Positions 31,732 through 37,108 of a stretch of DNA of 64,000 nucleotides are shown piece by piece. The DNA lies in assembly GCA_028281285.1 (NCBI GenBank), contig JANQKF010000013.1, forward strand, positions 1 to 64,000. Reading direction: 5' to 3'. The notes below the pieces were generated by a model. It was not told the DNA's origin, ran no database searches, and worked only from the letters and a program-made list of their open reading frames with translations. Position 1 is the stretch's first letter. Every line of letters begins with the position of its first letter. Both the position numbers and the translations under genes were made by a program. This stretch comes from Cyclobacteriaceae bacterium (GTDB lineage: Bacteria; Bacteroidota; Bacteroidia; Cytophagales; Cyclobacteriaceae).

Positions 31732-32685
31732 CTAAAGGAGACCCTTTTTTCTTTTCTTGTTGAGAAATCGGTAGTCCAATTTCAAGACAAGAAGCGTTTT
31801 ATACATCATAAGCCTGAAAGTACTTTCTTTCAGGCTTTTTAATAATTCAAAAAACTCTCCGGCAAGCTCAGATGCTCCCGATGTAATACAATGTCCAAGT
31901 TCATGGCGCACCCTTTCTCTTAATGCCTGGAATTCTGTGTTTGTCTTGCAAAGCTGATGTGCTTTATGACATACTATCAATGTGGATTGCAGTTGATGAT
32001 TACGTCTAAAATCATATTGAAAAGCAGACATTGAAGTTTTTACTTTTCTCTTAGACATAAGCACTTCATCCAAATAGGTGTATTTGGTAAATCGGCTTGA
32101 TCGGACCCAAAAGTCAAAGTCTTCAAATTCAAGATCGCTGTCATAGCCATTAAGCCTCTCCAATACGGATCTGTGGATCATCATAGTCGGAGTGCATATG
32201 AAATAACGTTTCAGAATCTCCTCAAAAACATCTCCATGAGGAACTTCCTTGAGCAAGCCCTTTTTTCTTAACTCCTCATTATGATTAGCAAGTATATCTG
32301 AGCTTTCATTGATGTAATTGGCATTTGAGAAACAAACACCACATTCAGCGTCCACTTTTTGTAACTGCTCAACACTTTTGGATATAAATTCCGCGTGCAT
32401 AACATCATCCAGTGCAAAATCAACAATGTAATCACCCTTAGATAGATCAAAGGCCTGATTGAAGGTAGATGTATATCCAATATTTGATGAATTAAGCTGA
32501 AGCTTAATGTTTTCTTTTCCTGCAACAAAATCTCTAATCACCTGTTGACTTGAGTCAGTGCTAGAATCATCACATATAATGATTTCCAGGTTTTCATAAC
32601 TCTGATCGAAAACACTTTTCAGCGCTTCTATAATGTAGCGCTCGTGGTTATAGGAAATACAAATAATTGAAACTAGGGGCTTCAT
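31732..32685 (-). CDS. Family 2 glycosyltransferase
   Basis: 317 residues of GT-A fold. VSIICISYNHERYIIEALKSVFDQSY opens the domain, IIICDDSSTDSS holds the nucleotide-sugar Asp pair, and FALDDVM provides the DxD-like metal site. Three quarters in, DSDLEFEDFDFWVR resembles the acceptor-side acidic motif. The C-terminal 100 residues are helical and Lys-rich. Cytoplasmic, membrane-associated enzyme adding a sugar to a lipid-linked glycan. It is the last gene of the glycan cassette and overlaps the flippase stop by four bases. Confidence 0.9.
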   Translation of the reverse strand: MKPLVSIICISYNHERYIIEALKSVFDQSYENLEIIICDDSSTDSSQQVIRDFVAGKENIKLQLNSSNIGYTSTFNQAFDLSKGDYIVDFALDDVMHAEFISKSVEQLQKVDAECGVCFSNANYINESSDILANHNEELRKKGLLKEVPHGDVFEEILKRYFICTPTMMIHRSVLERLNGYDSDLEFEDFDFWVRSSRFTKYTYLDEVLMSKRKVKTSMSAFQYDFRRNHQLQSTLIVCHKAHQLCKTNTEFQALRERVRHELGHCITSGASELAGEFFELLKSLKESTFRLMMYKTLLVLKLDYRFLNKKRKKGLL

Positions 32686-33935
32686 TTGAATAATAAACGC
32701 CTATTAAAGTAGACCAAGATGAGAAAGAATCCTATGAACCGCCACATGTGAGCAATGGTCAGTGCTTCTAAATTATATTGTTGGAGCAATATGCTGATGA
32801 GGGTCAGGTAAATTACAGCAGAGAAGAACTGTGCCTTAATGTACTTCCAGGTTTGAACACGTGCTGAAAGCAAGTAGGCCAAGAGATAGGACAGAATACA
32901 GAAAAAATCCCCCACCACCTGATATCGAACCAAGTAACTTGCTTTTTTAAATCCTGAGGCAAAGAAGAGCTCCAGGAAAAAAGAACGATTGAAATAATAA
33001 ATGGCAAGACAAAACACCATAAGAAACGCCACAAATCCCATAACCTTAGACACGTAACTCTTCAAGGCCACTGAATCGTGAATCAAAGAAGCCATTTTTG
33101 GATAGTAAACCACTCCTACTGTCCCCGTAAAGACCAGCAAATAACTATTGGACATTTTAGCCACAGCCTGCCATAACCCAGTACGATCAGTTCCAAATTC
33201 TGTGATGATGTAATCCCTGACTCCAAAATCCAATAGTTTACCAAAAGCAATTGAACTAATAGCCATCACGATAAAACTCCAGATCATTCTGGACGACTTT
33301 TTGTCCGGGGCTTTAAACGTCAACGGAATTGTCTTTCGTTTTCTCAGAAAGTAAAACAGTGCGCAAAAGAACATCAAAGAATAACCTACTGGAAAACTTA
33401 AAAGCGCCTGATCTAAATTGCCTCTGGTGATACCCAAATAGACTGTTCCAGTTAAAAGTACCACACCAATAATGCTGATGACAGCGTACGCTCTTACGTC
33501 ACGATAGGACAAAATAATGGCATTGAGCATGGCTGTCATTAATGTCAACAACACTGCGGGAATAAATATGACCAAGAACTGTACAGTGGATAGCTCGTCA
33601 ATGAATCGATCGAAGAAAAAGGATTTTCTCCAGAGTAATATTGCCAAGACCAATACCATGATAAGTATGGTCATCCAAAAGCCAGTTTGGAAAAGTTTCT
33701 TCTTTCGGTCCTCCTCCATTTGAGGGTCTGACCAATATTTCATAATACCTCGATTTACCCCCTCATTTGGTAGCAAGGTGAAGAGTGAAATGAGGTTTTG
33801 GAAGTGAGAAAGAAGAGTAATCCCGCTTGTTCCTAAAAAAACAGCAAAAAGTTTATTGATAGTTAGCCCACCTAATGCTCGGAAAACAACCGCACTGAAA
33901 GACCATGATGAACTTTTGAAGAATTGTGATTTCAA
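32682..33935 (-). CDS. Polysaccharide (O-antigen type) flippase
   Basis: 417 residues with about 12 transmembrane helices and few charged loops, matching the Wzx/MATE-like polysaccharide exporter group. The N-terminal SSWSFSAVVFRALGGLTINKLFAVFLGTSGITLLSHFQNL is the usual opening of these flippases. It should move a lipid-linked oligosaccharide across the cytoplasmic membrane. It starts 11 bases after the GNAT/FemAB-like gene and overlaps the glycosyltransferase. Confidence 0.85.
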   Translation of the reverse strand: MKSQFFKSSSWSFSAVVFRALGGLTINKLFAVFLGTSGITLLSHFQNLISLFTLLPNEGVNRGIMKYWSDPQMEEDRKKKLFQTGFWMTILIMVLVLAILLWRKSFFFDRFIDELSTVQFLVIFIPAVLLTLMTAMLNAIILSYRDVRAYAVISIIGVVLLTGTVYLGITRGNLDQALLSFPVGYSLMFFCALFYFLRKRKTIPLTFKAPDKKSSRMIWSFIVMAISSIAFGKLLDFGVRDYIITEFGTDRTGLWQAVAKMSNSYLLVFTGTVGVVYYPKMASLIHDSVALKSYVSKVMGFVAFLMVFCLAIYYFNRSFFLELFFASGFKKASYLVRYQVVGDFFCILSYLLAYLLSARVQTWKYIKAQFFSAVIYLTLISILLQQYNLEALTIAHMWRFIGFFLILVYFNRRLLFK

Positions 33936-33945
33936 CTACTCTGTT

Positions 33946-34875
33946 TTACCGCGAAGATAGGGCTTTTCGGAAGACTAAGCCCTTACTCTCCATCCCTCCT
34001 ATGTGCGATTTAAAACGATAAAGAGATTGGTTCATTTTGTTGCCAACATAGGAAGTGCCTAAATCCAGTAATTCAACGCCTTGATTCTGGCACCACTTAT
34101 ACATCCCGTCTACTAGTTTGACAATTGGGCTGTAATTGTTGAATGCAGGGTCATGGGCAGGGTAAAAGTGGTAAAGTATGCTATTGTTGACCCGAATGGC
34201 AATCGTGGCTGCAATCAGTTGTTCATTCGAATAAATGCCAAAAGGGATATAAGCCTCCTTATTCAGTTTTCTTGATTGATCCAGTTCTGCCCGGCCCATG
34301 GACAAGGGTTTATTGGCCATATTCCGCCAATCGTTGATTGCAGTGTAGACTCTTGAAAGTTCATTTTGAGGCAGATGACGAAATTCGAAGCCTGACTTGT
34401 TGCATTTCCTAAGTCGCCTCATCTCCATCTCTTTCATAATCAAATCGTGTGAAGAAACAGGGATTACCTGGAATACTCTTTCAGATTTCACATTATACTG
34501 TAAATCTTTTAAACATTGGGTTAGCACTCTTTGATCTTGATATGCTTCCGGACATTGACCAACCCGGATGAACCGTACTCCATTGGATTTTAATTCTCTT
34601 TCGACAAAAACCAAAAAGGTCATTAAGTCTTCAGATGACAATTGAGAATTGAATTCAATTCCTCCGAAGGGTGCCTTAAAAGGAGAAATGGCTTCTCCTT
34701 CTTCCAGGTTAAATGCGACATGTGCATCACACGAGTTGTCAACCGGATCATACCAATAGTAGTGAATCTGAGGCAGATCGTTATTGGCATTCAGAAATTG
34801 AGGAGTATTGTAGAGAAAAGAAATGTATCGGATCTCAGATTGATCTGGTAATTCATCAACGAGTCTATAACCCAT
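33946..34875 (-). CDS. GNAT/FemAB-like acyltransferase
   Basis: 309 residues from the ATG at 34875, which overlaps the cupin gene by 11 bases; a frame 15 codons longer would overlap by 56. Two GNAT-like halves are suggested: LMTFLVFVERELKSNGVRFIRVGQCPEAY in the first and IPFGIYSNEQLIAATIAIRVNNSILYHFYPAHD followed by DLGTSYVGNKMNQSLYRFKSHIGG in the second, as in FemAB-type and BioF2-like enzymes. Within a sugar cassette it probably acylates (acetyl or aminoacyl) an amino sugar made by the cassette. Substrate unknown. Confidence 0.7.
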   Translation of the reverse strand: MGYRLVDELPDQSEIRYISFLYNTPQFLNANNDLPQIHYYWYDPVDNSCDAHVAFNLEEGEAISPFKAPFGGIEFNSQLSSEDLMTFLVFVERELKSNGVRFIRVGQCPEAYQDQRVLTQCLKDLQYNVKSERVFQVIPVSSHDLIMKEMEMRRLRKCNKSGFEFRHLPQNELSRVYTAINDWRNMANKPLSMGRAELDQSRKLNKEAYIPFGIYSNEQLIAATIAIRVNNSILYHFYPAHDPAFNNYSPIVKLVDGMYKWCQNQGVELLDLGTSYVGNKMNQSLYRFKSHIGGMESKGLVFRKALSSR

Positions 34876-35257
34876 CAAACTCCTCCCTTCTCCGTATATA
34901 GTCTTCCTCAATAAATTCATCCGAAGCCAGACCTATCATCAAAGCATTCTGACTGAAGACCATTTTTCCCCACCATAGAGGAGGTATGTATAAACCGGTT
35001 TCAGGATTATCTAAGGTATAGCCAAGACGTTCACCATCTTTCGATTCCAGTAAAATCTCTATTCTACCGTTCGTACAAACAACCACTTGACGCGAAGTTC
35101 TATGGGCATGATTACCCCGGATCTGATGCTCGGGAATATCCCAAAGCCAATAAACCCTTTGAATCTCAAAAGGAACCTCATCCAAGCTCTGTGTAAAACT
35201 GAGTTTGCCACTCTCTGCCCGATGAGATCGAAAAGAAATGAGGAACGGCTTATCCAT
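34865..35257 (-). CDS. FdtA/WxcM-like cupin, sugar 3,4-ketoisomerase
   Basis: 130 residues from the ATG at 35257. RGNHAHRTSRQ carries H50 and H52, matching the catalytic histidine pair of FdtA-type dTDP-6-deoxy-hexulose isomerases. The jelly-roll strands VVVCTNGRIEILLE and TGLYIPPLWWGKMVF follow, and the C-terminus DEFIEEDYIRRREEF is typical. It should convert a dTDP-4-keto to a dTDP-3-keto 6-deoxy sugar on the way to an amino sugar. No dTDP-glucose or aminotransferase genes are in the window, so the supply must come from elsewhere. The start overlaps the HTH gene stop by eight bases. Confidence 0.82.
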   Translation of the reverse strand: MDKPFLISFRSHRAESGKLSFTQSLDEVPFEIQRVYWLWDIPEHQIRGNHAHRTSRQVVVCTNGRIEILLESKDGERLGYTLDNPETGLYIPPLWWGKMVFSQNALMIGLASDEFIEEDYIRRREEFDGL

Positions 35258-35507
35258 TGATGTACTCTTCGATTCTTTTGCTGTCAACTTCAGAGGTTTT
35301 ACCTGTGGAGATCTGATTGGCCACAAGCTTTGGATAGGCATCTCTCAATTCGAACAAGATGTTAAAAGCCAAAAGGACATGTCGATTGTCGGAACGCCTG
35401 CCATTAACTATCGACCGGATGGTATCTTTGCTTAAGCCCAATGCATCAGCAACAAGCTCATAGTCTCCGTCCTTTTTGAGGTTTTTTATTTCGTCAAAAC
35501 TTTTCAT
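35250..35507 (-). CDS. Small helix-turn-helix DNA-binding protein
   Basis: 85 residues from the ATG at 35507 (a GTG three codons earlier overlaps the operator). DYELVADALGLSKDTIRSIVNGRRSDNRHVLLAFNIL is a Cro/XRE-like helix-turn-helix with the recognition helix at KDTIRSIVNGRRS. The rest is short and helical. As the first gene of the glycan cassette it is placed to control that operon. It is divergent from the XRE regulator across a 24-bp palindrome. Confidence 0.72.
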   Translation of the reverse strand: MKSFDEIKNLKKDGDYELVADALGLSKDTIRSIVNGRRSDNRHVLLAFNILFELRDAYPKLVANQISTGKTSEVDSKRIEEYING

Positions 35508-35508
35508 A

Positions 35509-35532
35509 TTTGTCACTATATCGCGTTACAAA
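35509..35532. promoter_or_regulatory. 24-bp palindromic operator, copy 1
   Basis: TTTGTCAC, 8 bases, then GTTACAAA: an inverted repeat with 8-bp arms and one mismatch, ending just before the HTH ATG and 55 bases before the XRE ATG. Copy 2 at 36818-36841, read on the other strand, is identical at 21 of 24 positions, spacer included. A second perfect repeat, CGCGTT/AACGCG (35522-35537), overlaps its right half. Probable binding site of one of the flanking regulators. Confidence 0.65.
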
Positions 35533-35587
35533 ACGCGTCATTATTCTTGACCAATGTCCAATTTATTGAACATATTCACATTTCTAA

Positions 35588-36322
35588 ATGGCCTTCGGAG
35601 ATAAAATCAAAGAGTTGCGGAAGAAGCGTGGATTAAGCCAACAGGCACTCGCAGATCAAATCAACCGACTGTGCAACACTGACTTAAAGAGAAATACCAT
35701 TTCTAACTATGAAAGAGAAAAGAGTTTCCCAGATTATTACAAACTAATTGCGCTAGTCAATATTCTTGACACTTCTTCAGACAACTTGTTGGGGCTAAAT
35801 CAAAGACCACTACCTGGATTGGTATCTCCGAAAATACGTGAGGTTATTCATTCTGGCTTGGTTGAGGAATCCACACCTAATCGCCTTTCAGGGGAAATTA
35901 AGTCAAGATTGGAGGCCAGATCTAATCTGGGCAAAATTAAATACATTAGCCAAAAAGAACAAAACATTTATATAGAAAAGTATAAATGCCCTATATACAT
36001 AAAATCTCTTCCACATATTGTTATTCCATACTTAGCAGAAAAACATTATAGGGCATTTCAATTGTCATCCGCAATCCAGGCTTCTCTTTGGAAGGGTAAA
36101 GTGAATAAGGGCGATATTATTGTTTGCGAGATGTCGAACGTATCGGAAAGTAACCGTCAGGCCGGACTTTTTCTTACCATCTGGGATAAAGACGGTATAA
36201 GGATACTTCGGTATGGTGAACTGATTCAATTTCTGGGTGCACCCAATTTACTGGAGATTTGGGCTCCTCGTACTCTTATTAGCTACCAAGATTACCTATT
36301 GAATGATGTTTCCATGGAATAG
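35588..36322 (+). CDS. XRE-family regulator with S24-like C-terminus
   Basis: 244 residues. The N-terminal helix-turn-helix (about 6-66; IKELRKKRGLSQQALADQINRL and RNTISNYEREKSFPDYYKLIALVNIL) is XRE-like. The C-terminal part HYRAFQLSSAIQASLWKGKVNKGDIIVCE resembles the LexA/CI-type S24 fold, but the GDSM serine box is degenerate (LSSAI) and no clear catalytic Lys follows, so self-cleavage is unlikely. It could act as a dimerisation or ligand-sensing domain. Divergent from the glycan cassette; copy 1 of the palindrome lies in the shared promoter, so it is the first candidate to bind it. Confidence 0.82.
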   Translation: MAFGDKIKELRKKRGLSQQALADQINRLCNTDLKRNTISNYEREKSFPDYYKLIALVNILDTSSDNLLGLNQRPLPGLVSPKIREVIHSGLVEESTPNRLSGEIKSRLEARSNLGKIKYISQKEQNIYIEKYKCPIYIKSLPHIVIPYLAEKHYRAFQLSSAIQASLWKGKVNKGDIIVCEMSNVSESNRQAGLFLTIWDKDGIRILRYGELIQFLGAPNLLEIWAPRTLISYQDYLLNDVSME

Positions 36323-36326
36323 GAAT

Positions 36327-36779
36327 TCACAACTGGTTGTATCGTCTTCTTCCCTGAGAATAATATCGTCTTATTTCGGACTGGCTCAGGTAAGACAGGC
36401 CAATATTTTCGCCCTTTTGGGTAGAAATAATGGTGTAGTCAAGCATTTTTTTGAGTCGAATGACAGCTCCATTCCTTGTGGAAAAATACAGCATCCAACG
36501 AAGTGCAATCGGACATGGACTATTTTGACCAAACTTGAATTTATCTTGATAAAGGACCACGATAACAATACCTGGTAATCTGATGAATCTACCATCAAGC
36601 ATAGTATTCAAAGAGACATGCAGATTTCGGGCACATCCCAATGGAGATAACAGTAAACGAAAAGGGGTTTTCAATTTATAACGGAGGATCGTTCCGTCAT
36701 AGTTAGTACTATAAACAAGATTACTTGCCCTAAATGGGACGTTCATCTTATTGGAAACAGAAAAACCATGACTTTTCAT
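36327..36779 (-). CDS. Small LytTR-like DNA-binding protein
   Basis: 150 residues from the ATG at 36779. The pattern fits a divergent LytTR domain: VPFRASNLVYSTNYDGTILRYKL, then DGRFIRLPGIVIVVL (compare the FIRIHRSYIVNL consensus), then STRNGAVIRLKKML before a basic tail with several Arg. No other domain is present. A GTG at 36806 would extend the frame but lies in the -7 element, so ATG is preferred. The gene is convergent with the XRE regulator and has copy 2 of the palindrome in its promoter. LytTR assignment is by eye and moderately sure. Confidence 0.5.
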   Translation of the reverse strand: MKSHGFSVSNKMNVPFRASNLVYSTNYDGTILRYKLKTPFRLLLSPLGCARNLHVSLNTMLDGRFIRLPGIVIVVLYQDKFKFGQNSPCPIALRWMLYFSTRNGAVIRLKKMLDYTIISTQKGENIGLSYLSQSEIRRYYSQGRRRYNQL

Positions 36780-36805
36780 TGTACGACCATCAGAATAGGC
36801 TTGCA

Positions 36806-36841
36806 CAAAGGTAAAATTTTGTAACGAAATATAGTTACAAA
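36806..36841 (-). promoter_or_regulatory. Promoter with palindromic operator, copy 2
   Basis: On the minus strand TTTG (36838-36841) is followed 24 bases later by TACCTTTG (36806-36813), a perfect -7 element. The palindrome TTTGTAAC-(8)-GTTACAAA (36818-36841, perfect 8-bp arms) fills the space between them, where a repressor would block polymerase. Predicted start about 36799, 20 bases before the ATG of the LytTR-like gene. Confidence 0.6.
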
Positions 36842-37108
36842 TTCTAATTTATTTATTAACTTGCGCTTATCGACCTACCGTTAGATGGTTGAATAATCTA
36901 GGTAGTTATACCTCATCATTTCAAAGACGTTGAAGTGAATCATTTGTGTTTGTACTTACTCATAGAACTCTTAGTAAAACACAAAGTGTTTAGGTAATAT
37001 GCTTGATCGGAAAACGCATTTTCCGGTCAAGCATTTGTCATTTCAACCGACCAAGATTATCATACGACACCATCCAATAATTGAACCCTTTAGGTAAATT
37101 CGCACCGA
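36842..37108. other. Gene-free stretch with successive stem-loops
   Basis: Gene-free stretch, about 330 bases when counted from the LytTR-like ATG at 36779 to the EamA ATG and including the promoter described separately. No plausible ORF. Its middle holds four stem-loops (see the ncRNA entry). The last 75 bases before the EamA ATG are AT-rich, without a clear promoter. Confidence 0.6.
36875..37034 (+). ncRNA. Candidate structured RNA or leader of the EamA gene
   Basis: Four hairpins in tandem. H1: CTACC/GGTAG with inner TAGAT/ATCTA, 36875-36905. H2: CATTTCAA/TTGAAGTG, 36917-36937. H3: AAACAC/GTGTTT, 36977-36991. H4: a 16-bp stem 36999-37014/37019-37034 with a CGCA loop. H4 has its single mismatch as G-U only on the plus strand, so the RNA would be rightward. 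H4 is followed by a weak T tract, like a terminator or attenuator 75 bases before the transporter ATG. No known RNA family recognised. Confidence 0.4.

Follow-up and report, generated by a model that had tools for sequence, protein, structure and literature searches.

An XRE-type regulator, a divergent gene for a small HTH protein and a palindrome that stands between them and, in two of three genomes, again behind the regulator are found together in some members of the genus Roseivirga, and we lean towards reading them as a CI/Cro-like switch, possibly phage-derived, that controls a glycan operon and a small RNA. The window, which is the whole stretch of 64,000 nucleotides analysed, belongs to a genome (G000) of 40 contigs and 5,162,273 bases (5.16 Mb) that falls in the same genus as an uncultured Roseivirga sp. 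(G016; CANLOY010000002.1) and R. spongicola UST030701-084 (G017; NZ_LRPC01000012.1). It was compared with 19 genomes of the genus (its own included), 295 genomes of the family, and a sample of 395 genomes of the phylum. In all three Roseivirga genomes named above, the XRE gene is divergent from the small HTH gene, which heads an operon that in the window continues with an FdtA-like isomerase, a GNAT/FemAB-like enzyme, a Wzx-like flippase, and a glycosyltransferase.

Table 1. Features of the locus, in window positions
Feature	Position	Strand	Remarks
Family 2 glycosyltransferase	31732..32685	-	PF00535, E=2.4e-23
Wzx-like polysaccharide flippase	32682..33935	-	PF13440, just above cut-off
GNAT/FemAB-like acyltransferase	33946..34920	-	PF13480, PF02388
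FdtA/WxcM-like sugar isomerase, operon gene 2	34865..35257	-	PF05523, E=1.6e-33; ATG 35257 judged to be the start because it overlaps the HTH stop
Small HTH protein, 85 aa, glycan operon gene 1	35250..35507	-	Weak HTH_31/HTH_3 matches, below cut-off
Putative operator site 1, TTTGTCACTATATCGCGTTACAAA	35509..35532	+ as read	Core GTAACGCGATATAGTGAC, 35512-35529 on the minus strand; 13/18 core columns identical in three genomes
XRE regulator, 244 aa	35588..36322	+	HTH_19/HTH_3 domain and degenerate S24-like tail
150-aa ORF, unnamed family	36327..36779	-	Likely start ATG 36779; matches in 6/295 family genomes, own included
Perfect Bacteroidota -7 box of the 150-aa ORF, TACCTTTG	36806-36813	-	
Putative operator site 2, TTTGTAACTATATTTCGTTACAAA	36818..36841	- as read	Core GTAACGAAATATAGTTAC, 36821-36838; counterpart GTAACGAAGCAATGTTAC in G016
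-7-like box of the predicted small-RNA start, TAACTTGC	36857-36864	+	
Probable small RNA, ~170 nt	36869..37036	+	Hairpin 36916-36938, loop AGACG; conserved GTTTAGGT; terminator stem 37001-37032
EamA's own -7-like box, TAAATTCG	37095..37102	+	Kept in genus

On sequence grounds, the case for the two putative operators rests on exact duplication, absence elsewhere, and conservation rather than on symmetry. An earlier note on this DNA had described the palindrome as present twice, with 21 of 24 positions matching between the copies, and both its placing and its count were right. The exact pattern TTTGTNAC-N8-GTNACAAA occurs at these two places only in the whole 5.16 Mb, not in many unrelated copies, and the reversed control pattern does not occur at all. 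With up to two mismatches allowed the window still contains just these two, against a mean of 0.44 matches in shuffled sequence. Symmetry of the palindrome by itself is weak evidence, because 7 of 100 shuffles gave at least two matches; perfect inverted repeats in the three Roseivirga gaps were likewise at chance level, being equalled by 169, 619, and 798 of 1000 shuffles.

In all three genomes the gap that separates the divergent HTH and XRE genes contains site 1, with its 18-bp core 4-5 bp from the HTH start (4 bp in the window) and 52-58 bp from the XRE start. The identical columns of this core (13 of 18) compare with 15 of 58 in the remaining gap (one-sided Fisher p=0.0006). Across G000, G016, and G017 the core pattern GTAACGNRNNNNNGTNAC is found at four places, all of them at this locus, while its reversed control gave 3, 6, and 2 matches; site 1 of G016 is one base off the strict pattern. 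When one mismatch was allowed, a single match away from the locus appeared in G000 and five in G016. The 16 genomes of the genus that lack the XRE gene summed to 62 one-mismatch matches against 167 for the reversed control, so that there is no sign of a wider regulon; one exact core match, in G004, lies elsewhere, within a 441-codon open frame. The suggestion that the palindrome tracks with the XRE gene was borne out, in that it adjoins the orthologues in all three genomes having both XRE and HTH, and a scan of the 13 other regions between EamA and Wzx (the slot described below) gave nothing that scored comparably (11.1 at best, where the five sites score 18.1-24.7). Site 2 is retained in one of the two relatives with XRE and HTH: in G016 it stands about 78 bp past the XRE stop, and in R. 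spongicola no counterpart was found in the 18 kb read.

The distribution of the two proteins is narrow. XRE orthologues were found, among the 19 genomes of the genus, in G016 and G017 only (47% and 40% identity), the remaining XRE matches in the genus being weak and to other XRE regulators. The small HTH protein (69% identity in G016 and 62% in G017) is present in the same three genomes, with one weak match in a further genome, G260, when the 295 family genomes were searched (17 of the genus genomes being among those listed); in the sample of 395 phylum genomes, whose listing does not contain G016 or G017, the window's own genome was the sole match. By profile comparison the S24-like tail of XRE is real. 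The whole protein aligned with S24 regulators of the genus over 208 columns (hhalign 99.2), and the tail alone aligned with the tails of these regulators over 112 columns (hhalign probability 97.9, E=3.9e-13). PF00717 matches one of the S24 paralogues of the genus and none of the three XRE orthologues. The peptidase residues of the tail have been lost: the GDSM and VYKR of the paralogue L025, whose Ser and Lys we take to be the catalytic residues, are replaced in all three. The label XRE/S24-like in the earlier note is thus apt for the tail, but not for the peptidase serine and lysine, which are gone. A single-sequence structure model of XRE was too low in confidence to use (pLDDT 39.5).

Beyond site 2, the conserved neighbour is probably a plus-strand small RNA of about 170 nt. 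The plus-strand stretch after the site aligns between G000 and G016, the two sequences that make up this comparison, with conservation of the GTTTAGGT stretch and of the AGACG loop. All nine pairs of the hairpin form in both genomes, two of them changed on both sides, and slid versions pair at 29-44%; the shuffle control for the hairpin is not decisive, since 131 of 500 shuffles do as well. In the terminator, which was paired by hand, 13 of 14 pairs are kept, with four changed on both sides and one broken, and the G000 terminator has a poor U run. Folding z-scores were -5.1 in G000 and -2.1 in G016. A covariance model of the hairpin part recovered its two source sequences strongly, the next match in the 19 genomes having E=0.0235. 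Candidate homologues in G012, G010, G005, and G009 were weak matches (E 0.02-0.9) and were set aside, the place in G012 being without a terminator-like hairpin by eye. R. spongicola, which has site 1 only, gave no match to the small RNA at E≤1, so the second arm, site 2 together with the small RNA, is not universal. Rfam gave no match to the stretch after site 2; its one match at E≤1 in four sources was a miRNA family elsewhere (L033 1640-1691), below the gathering score. The predicted start box in G000 fits a TAnnTTGY class described in Flavobacterium psychrophilum (PMC9723704), a fit that is only suggestive because the G016 counterpart is TACCTTCA. RNAduplex comparison of the small RNA with the start regions of local genes, 11 from the window and 9 from G016, pointed to no target consistently; the lowest z-score, -2.72, was for EamA in G016, and EamA in G000 scored +0.33.

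On the CI/Cro-like reading, XRE would, most likely and by analogy, be the protein that chiefly binds GTAAC-N8-GTTAC. Bound at site 1, it would block the glycan operon led by HTH, either where the operon starts or shortly after, and would probably tune its own gene; the 24-bp form of the site stops 1 bp away from the HTH start codon, a placing that suits repression. At site 2, which overlaps the predicted upstream promoter regions of both the small RNA and the 150-aa ORF, it would act on the small-RNA start region and, in this strain only, on the oppositely read 150-aa gene, and looping between the two sites, 1.3 kb apart, may be possible. The small HTH protein, made along with the glycan enzymes, may serve as a Cro-like opponent of XRE. 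Since the S24-like tail lacks the peptidase residues, release would come not by self-cleavage but through the HTH partner or another signal, and the switch could be bistable.

Several other readings of the same locus deserve weighing. The earlier note had one regulator controlling the glycan operon, itself, and a second regulator of LytTR type through site 2. The sequence supports one regulator acting locally, with a site of its own placed between it and the glycan operon, but does not support the second regulator, and we consider this version quite improbable. In its favour, site 2 is followed on the minus strand by the -7 box TACCTTTG and the start codon at 36779, which makes the 150-aa gene a plausible site 2 target in this strain. 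Against it, the ORF matched no Pfam, NCBIfam, or PHROGs family at E≤1, LytTR included, and it is missing beside the kept site 2 in G016. Relatives of the ORF, at 24-32% identity, were matched at nine other places in six family genomes (its own included). Also against this version, in six of eight of these loci (L113, L114, L115, L117, L118, and L120) the relatives stand directly behind the gene for a large protein; from sequence features, we take these large proteins to be probably secreted surface proteins. Members of the ORF family measure about 150-190 aa. A single-sequence structure model of the ORF, at pLDDT 32.4, was too low to use. The related claim that site 2 fills the space between -33 and -7 of the ORF promoter holds for the perfect -7 box but not for the other end, where the outer TTTG would have to stand about 4-5 bp closer to the gene to serve as a standard -33; the leader would be about 22 nt (-7 consensus and leader lengths as given in PMC6847099). 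It is also unlikely, in our judgement, that what follows site 2 is no more than an EamA leader or attenuator, or a plain terminator, with no small RNA made. The stretch does immediately precede EamA, and a terminator-like hairpin closes it, yet past the terminator EamA has a -7-like box of its own, TAAATTCG, which genomes lacking the stretch keep too (in six of the eight loci examined, of 18, the other two having TACCTTCG and TATTTTCG). With this box kept in the genus, the small RNA is not needed as an EamA leader; moreover, a second hairpin and an unpaired part are conserved within the stretch.

A different division of labour would make the small HTH protein the main binder, autoregulating the operon through site 1 and controlling site 2, with XRE answering to another signal. 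The abutment of site 1 on the HTH start codon in all three genomes fits this, as does the highly conserved recognition region of the HTH protein, but that of XRE is highly conserved as well. In phage precedents, moreover, both proteins use palindromic operators, and the typical dimeric palindrome binders are XRE/S24-type regulators, which leaves the HTH protein as an improbable choice for the main role. Hardly credible is the idea that the sites are inverted recombination sites between which the XRE segment flips. The two cores do face each other, inverted, in G000 and G016, but the orientation of the segment is identical in both genomes, R. spongicola has one site only, and no recombinase was recognised by eye among the ORFs listed at 24-48 kb, part of which were also searched with profiles. 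Site 1 also touches a start codon, as operators do.

Returning to the CI/Cro-like switch, the layout of its genes matches that of phage switches, and sequence homology points weakly towards phage. Lambda CI/Cro and Mu c/Ner are divergent phage switches. They and the system of the hankyphage repressor RepCHP resemble the Roseivirga locus in that a small HTH gene heads an operon and is divergent from the gene of an XRE-type repressor, with a palindromic site in the gap (in Roseivirga identified by sequence). Silencing of RepCHP is reported to raise phage gene expression (PMC12135933), and in hankyphage an XRE-like gene, judged by eye, is divergent from small genes, MuA, and MuB. The gene order of Mu-like phages of Bacteroidota is similar to that of the Roseivirga locus; in Winogradskyella phage Peternella_1 the regulator and a small gene are followed by transposase and transposase B, as in the prophage region of G260 described below. 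Unlike these switches, the Roseivirga locus has as its cargo a chromosomal glycan operon in place of transposase genes, a second site at a probable small RNA, and a degenerate S24-like tail.

The weak match in G260 (L170), the one remote relative of the small HTH protein in the 295 family genomes (E=2.1e-4; 35% identity over 49 aa), leads a Mu-like prophage operon, with an XRE gene of 111 aa running divergently from it. Among the products of this operon are a MuA-like transposase (phrog_310), a MuB-like protein (phrog_296), and Mu Gam. L170 (contig 16, 3000-17000), from another genus of the family, is a Mu-like prophage region that also encodes a DnaA-C-like protein. Its gap contains a 20-bp palindrome, TTGTGC-N8-GCACAA, with the same 8-bp spacer and 6 bp from the HTH start. 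It differs from the Roseivirga locus in that its XRE protein has no tail, MuA, MuB, and Gam lie downstream, and the palindrome has other letters and is near chance level (equalled by 90 of 1000 shuffles of the gap). No pairwise alignment was obtained between its XRE protein and that of the window. A profile of the HTH family that included the G260 protein had no significant match in five phage left ends (best E 0.13) or in 11 viral contigs (best E 0.42), and in the viral contigs neither a small HTH relative nor a Mu-like transposase was confirmed. Homology of XRE was set aside as a route to a phage origin, its viral and phage matches spanning the HTH domain and little more; its longest plasmid match covered residues 4-161 at 27%, on an Emticicia oligotrophica plasmid.

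Among systems that control surface structures, the capsule operons of Bacteroides led by UpxY/UpxZ are likewise glycan operons that begin with the gene for a regulator. UpxY/UpxZ are antitermination factors, often accompanied by invertible promoters, whereas the Roseivirga regulators are HTH proteins. XRE regulators of the Caulobacter holdfast occur in both phage and host and control surface adhesion; in contrast to the Roseivirga locus, their control runs through the holdfast inhibitor hfiA, and they have many binding sites on the chromosome (PMC10688885). A literature search, mostly of papers outside subscription, found no system with the combination described here.

A fuller account can be put forward tentatively: a captured immunity region of a transposable phage, with a c-like repressor, a Ner-like protein, and an operator, may drive a surface-glycan operon as a possibly bistable switch, a second operator may put a new small RNA under the same repressor, and the chromosomal slot that holds these genes may be exchanged between species for another regulatory cassette, an AAA ATPase with its own palindrome repeats, or for nothing. 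Surface glycans often determine which phages infect a cell and how cells adhere to surfaces. If true, the account would offer a compact system for testing whether cells split into glycan-on and glycan-off states, and would be a case of a phage control region reused by its host. Since the locus is compact and R. spongicola UST030701-084, a named strain, carries the version with a single site, the main claims are directly testable.

The EamA and Wzx genes that bound the slot are on one contig in 16 of the 19 genomes of the genus, with EamA alone seen in G009 and G011 and neither seen in G013. The Wzx flippase has strong matches in 15 other genomes of the genus and none in G013, and G009 and G011 are not among the matches listed. 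Beside FdtA and GNAT, the slot between EamA and Wzx holds XRE and HTH in 3 of the 16, an ATPase in 4, and neither in 9. On a tree of both proteins these states are scattered: G015, closest to the window, has the ATPase, and G017 pairs with G018, whose slot has neither cassette; support is only 0.37 at the node where G016 meets the G012/G006 pair. Such patchiness is as expected for an exchanged cassette. In G017 about 300 bp separate HTH from FdtA (L033 9688-9991), genes that overlap in the other two genomes. The slot ATPase is 371-374 aa long in G015, G012, G006, and G010, and PF01637 was found in the two scanned. A different palindrome, TACAAGTTGTA or near it, is present in two or three copies in three of the four ATPase slots, with none exact in G006, and the ATPase with its palindromes is a second, unrelated regulatory cassette in the same slot. 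At L086, L087, and L089 (G015, G012, and G010), the ATPase gene heads the same glycan operon, downstream of its two or three copies. The palindromes of the ATPase slots are 14 or 28 bp apart, and one copy reads TACAACATGTA.
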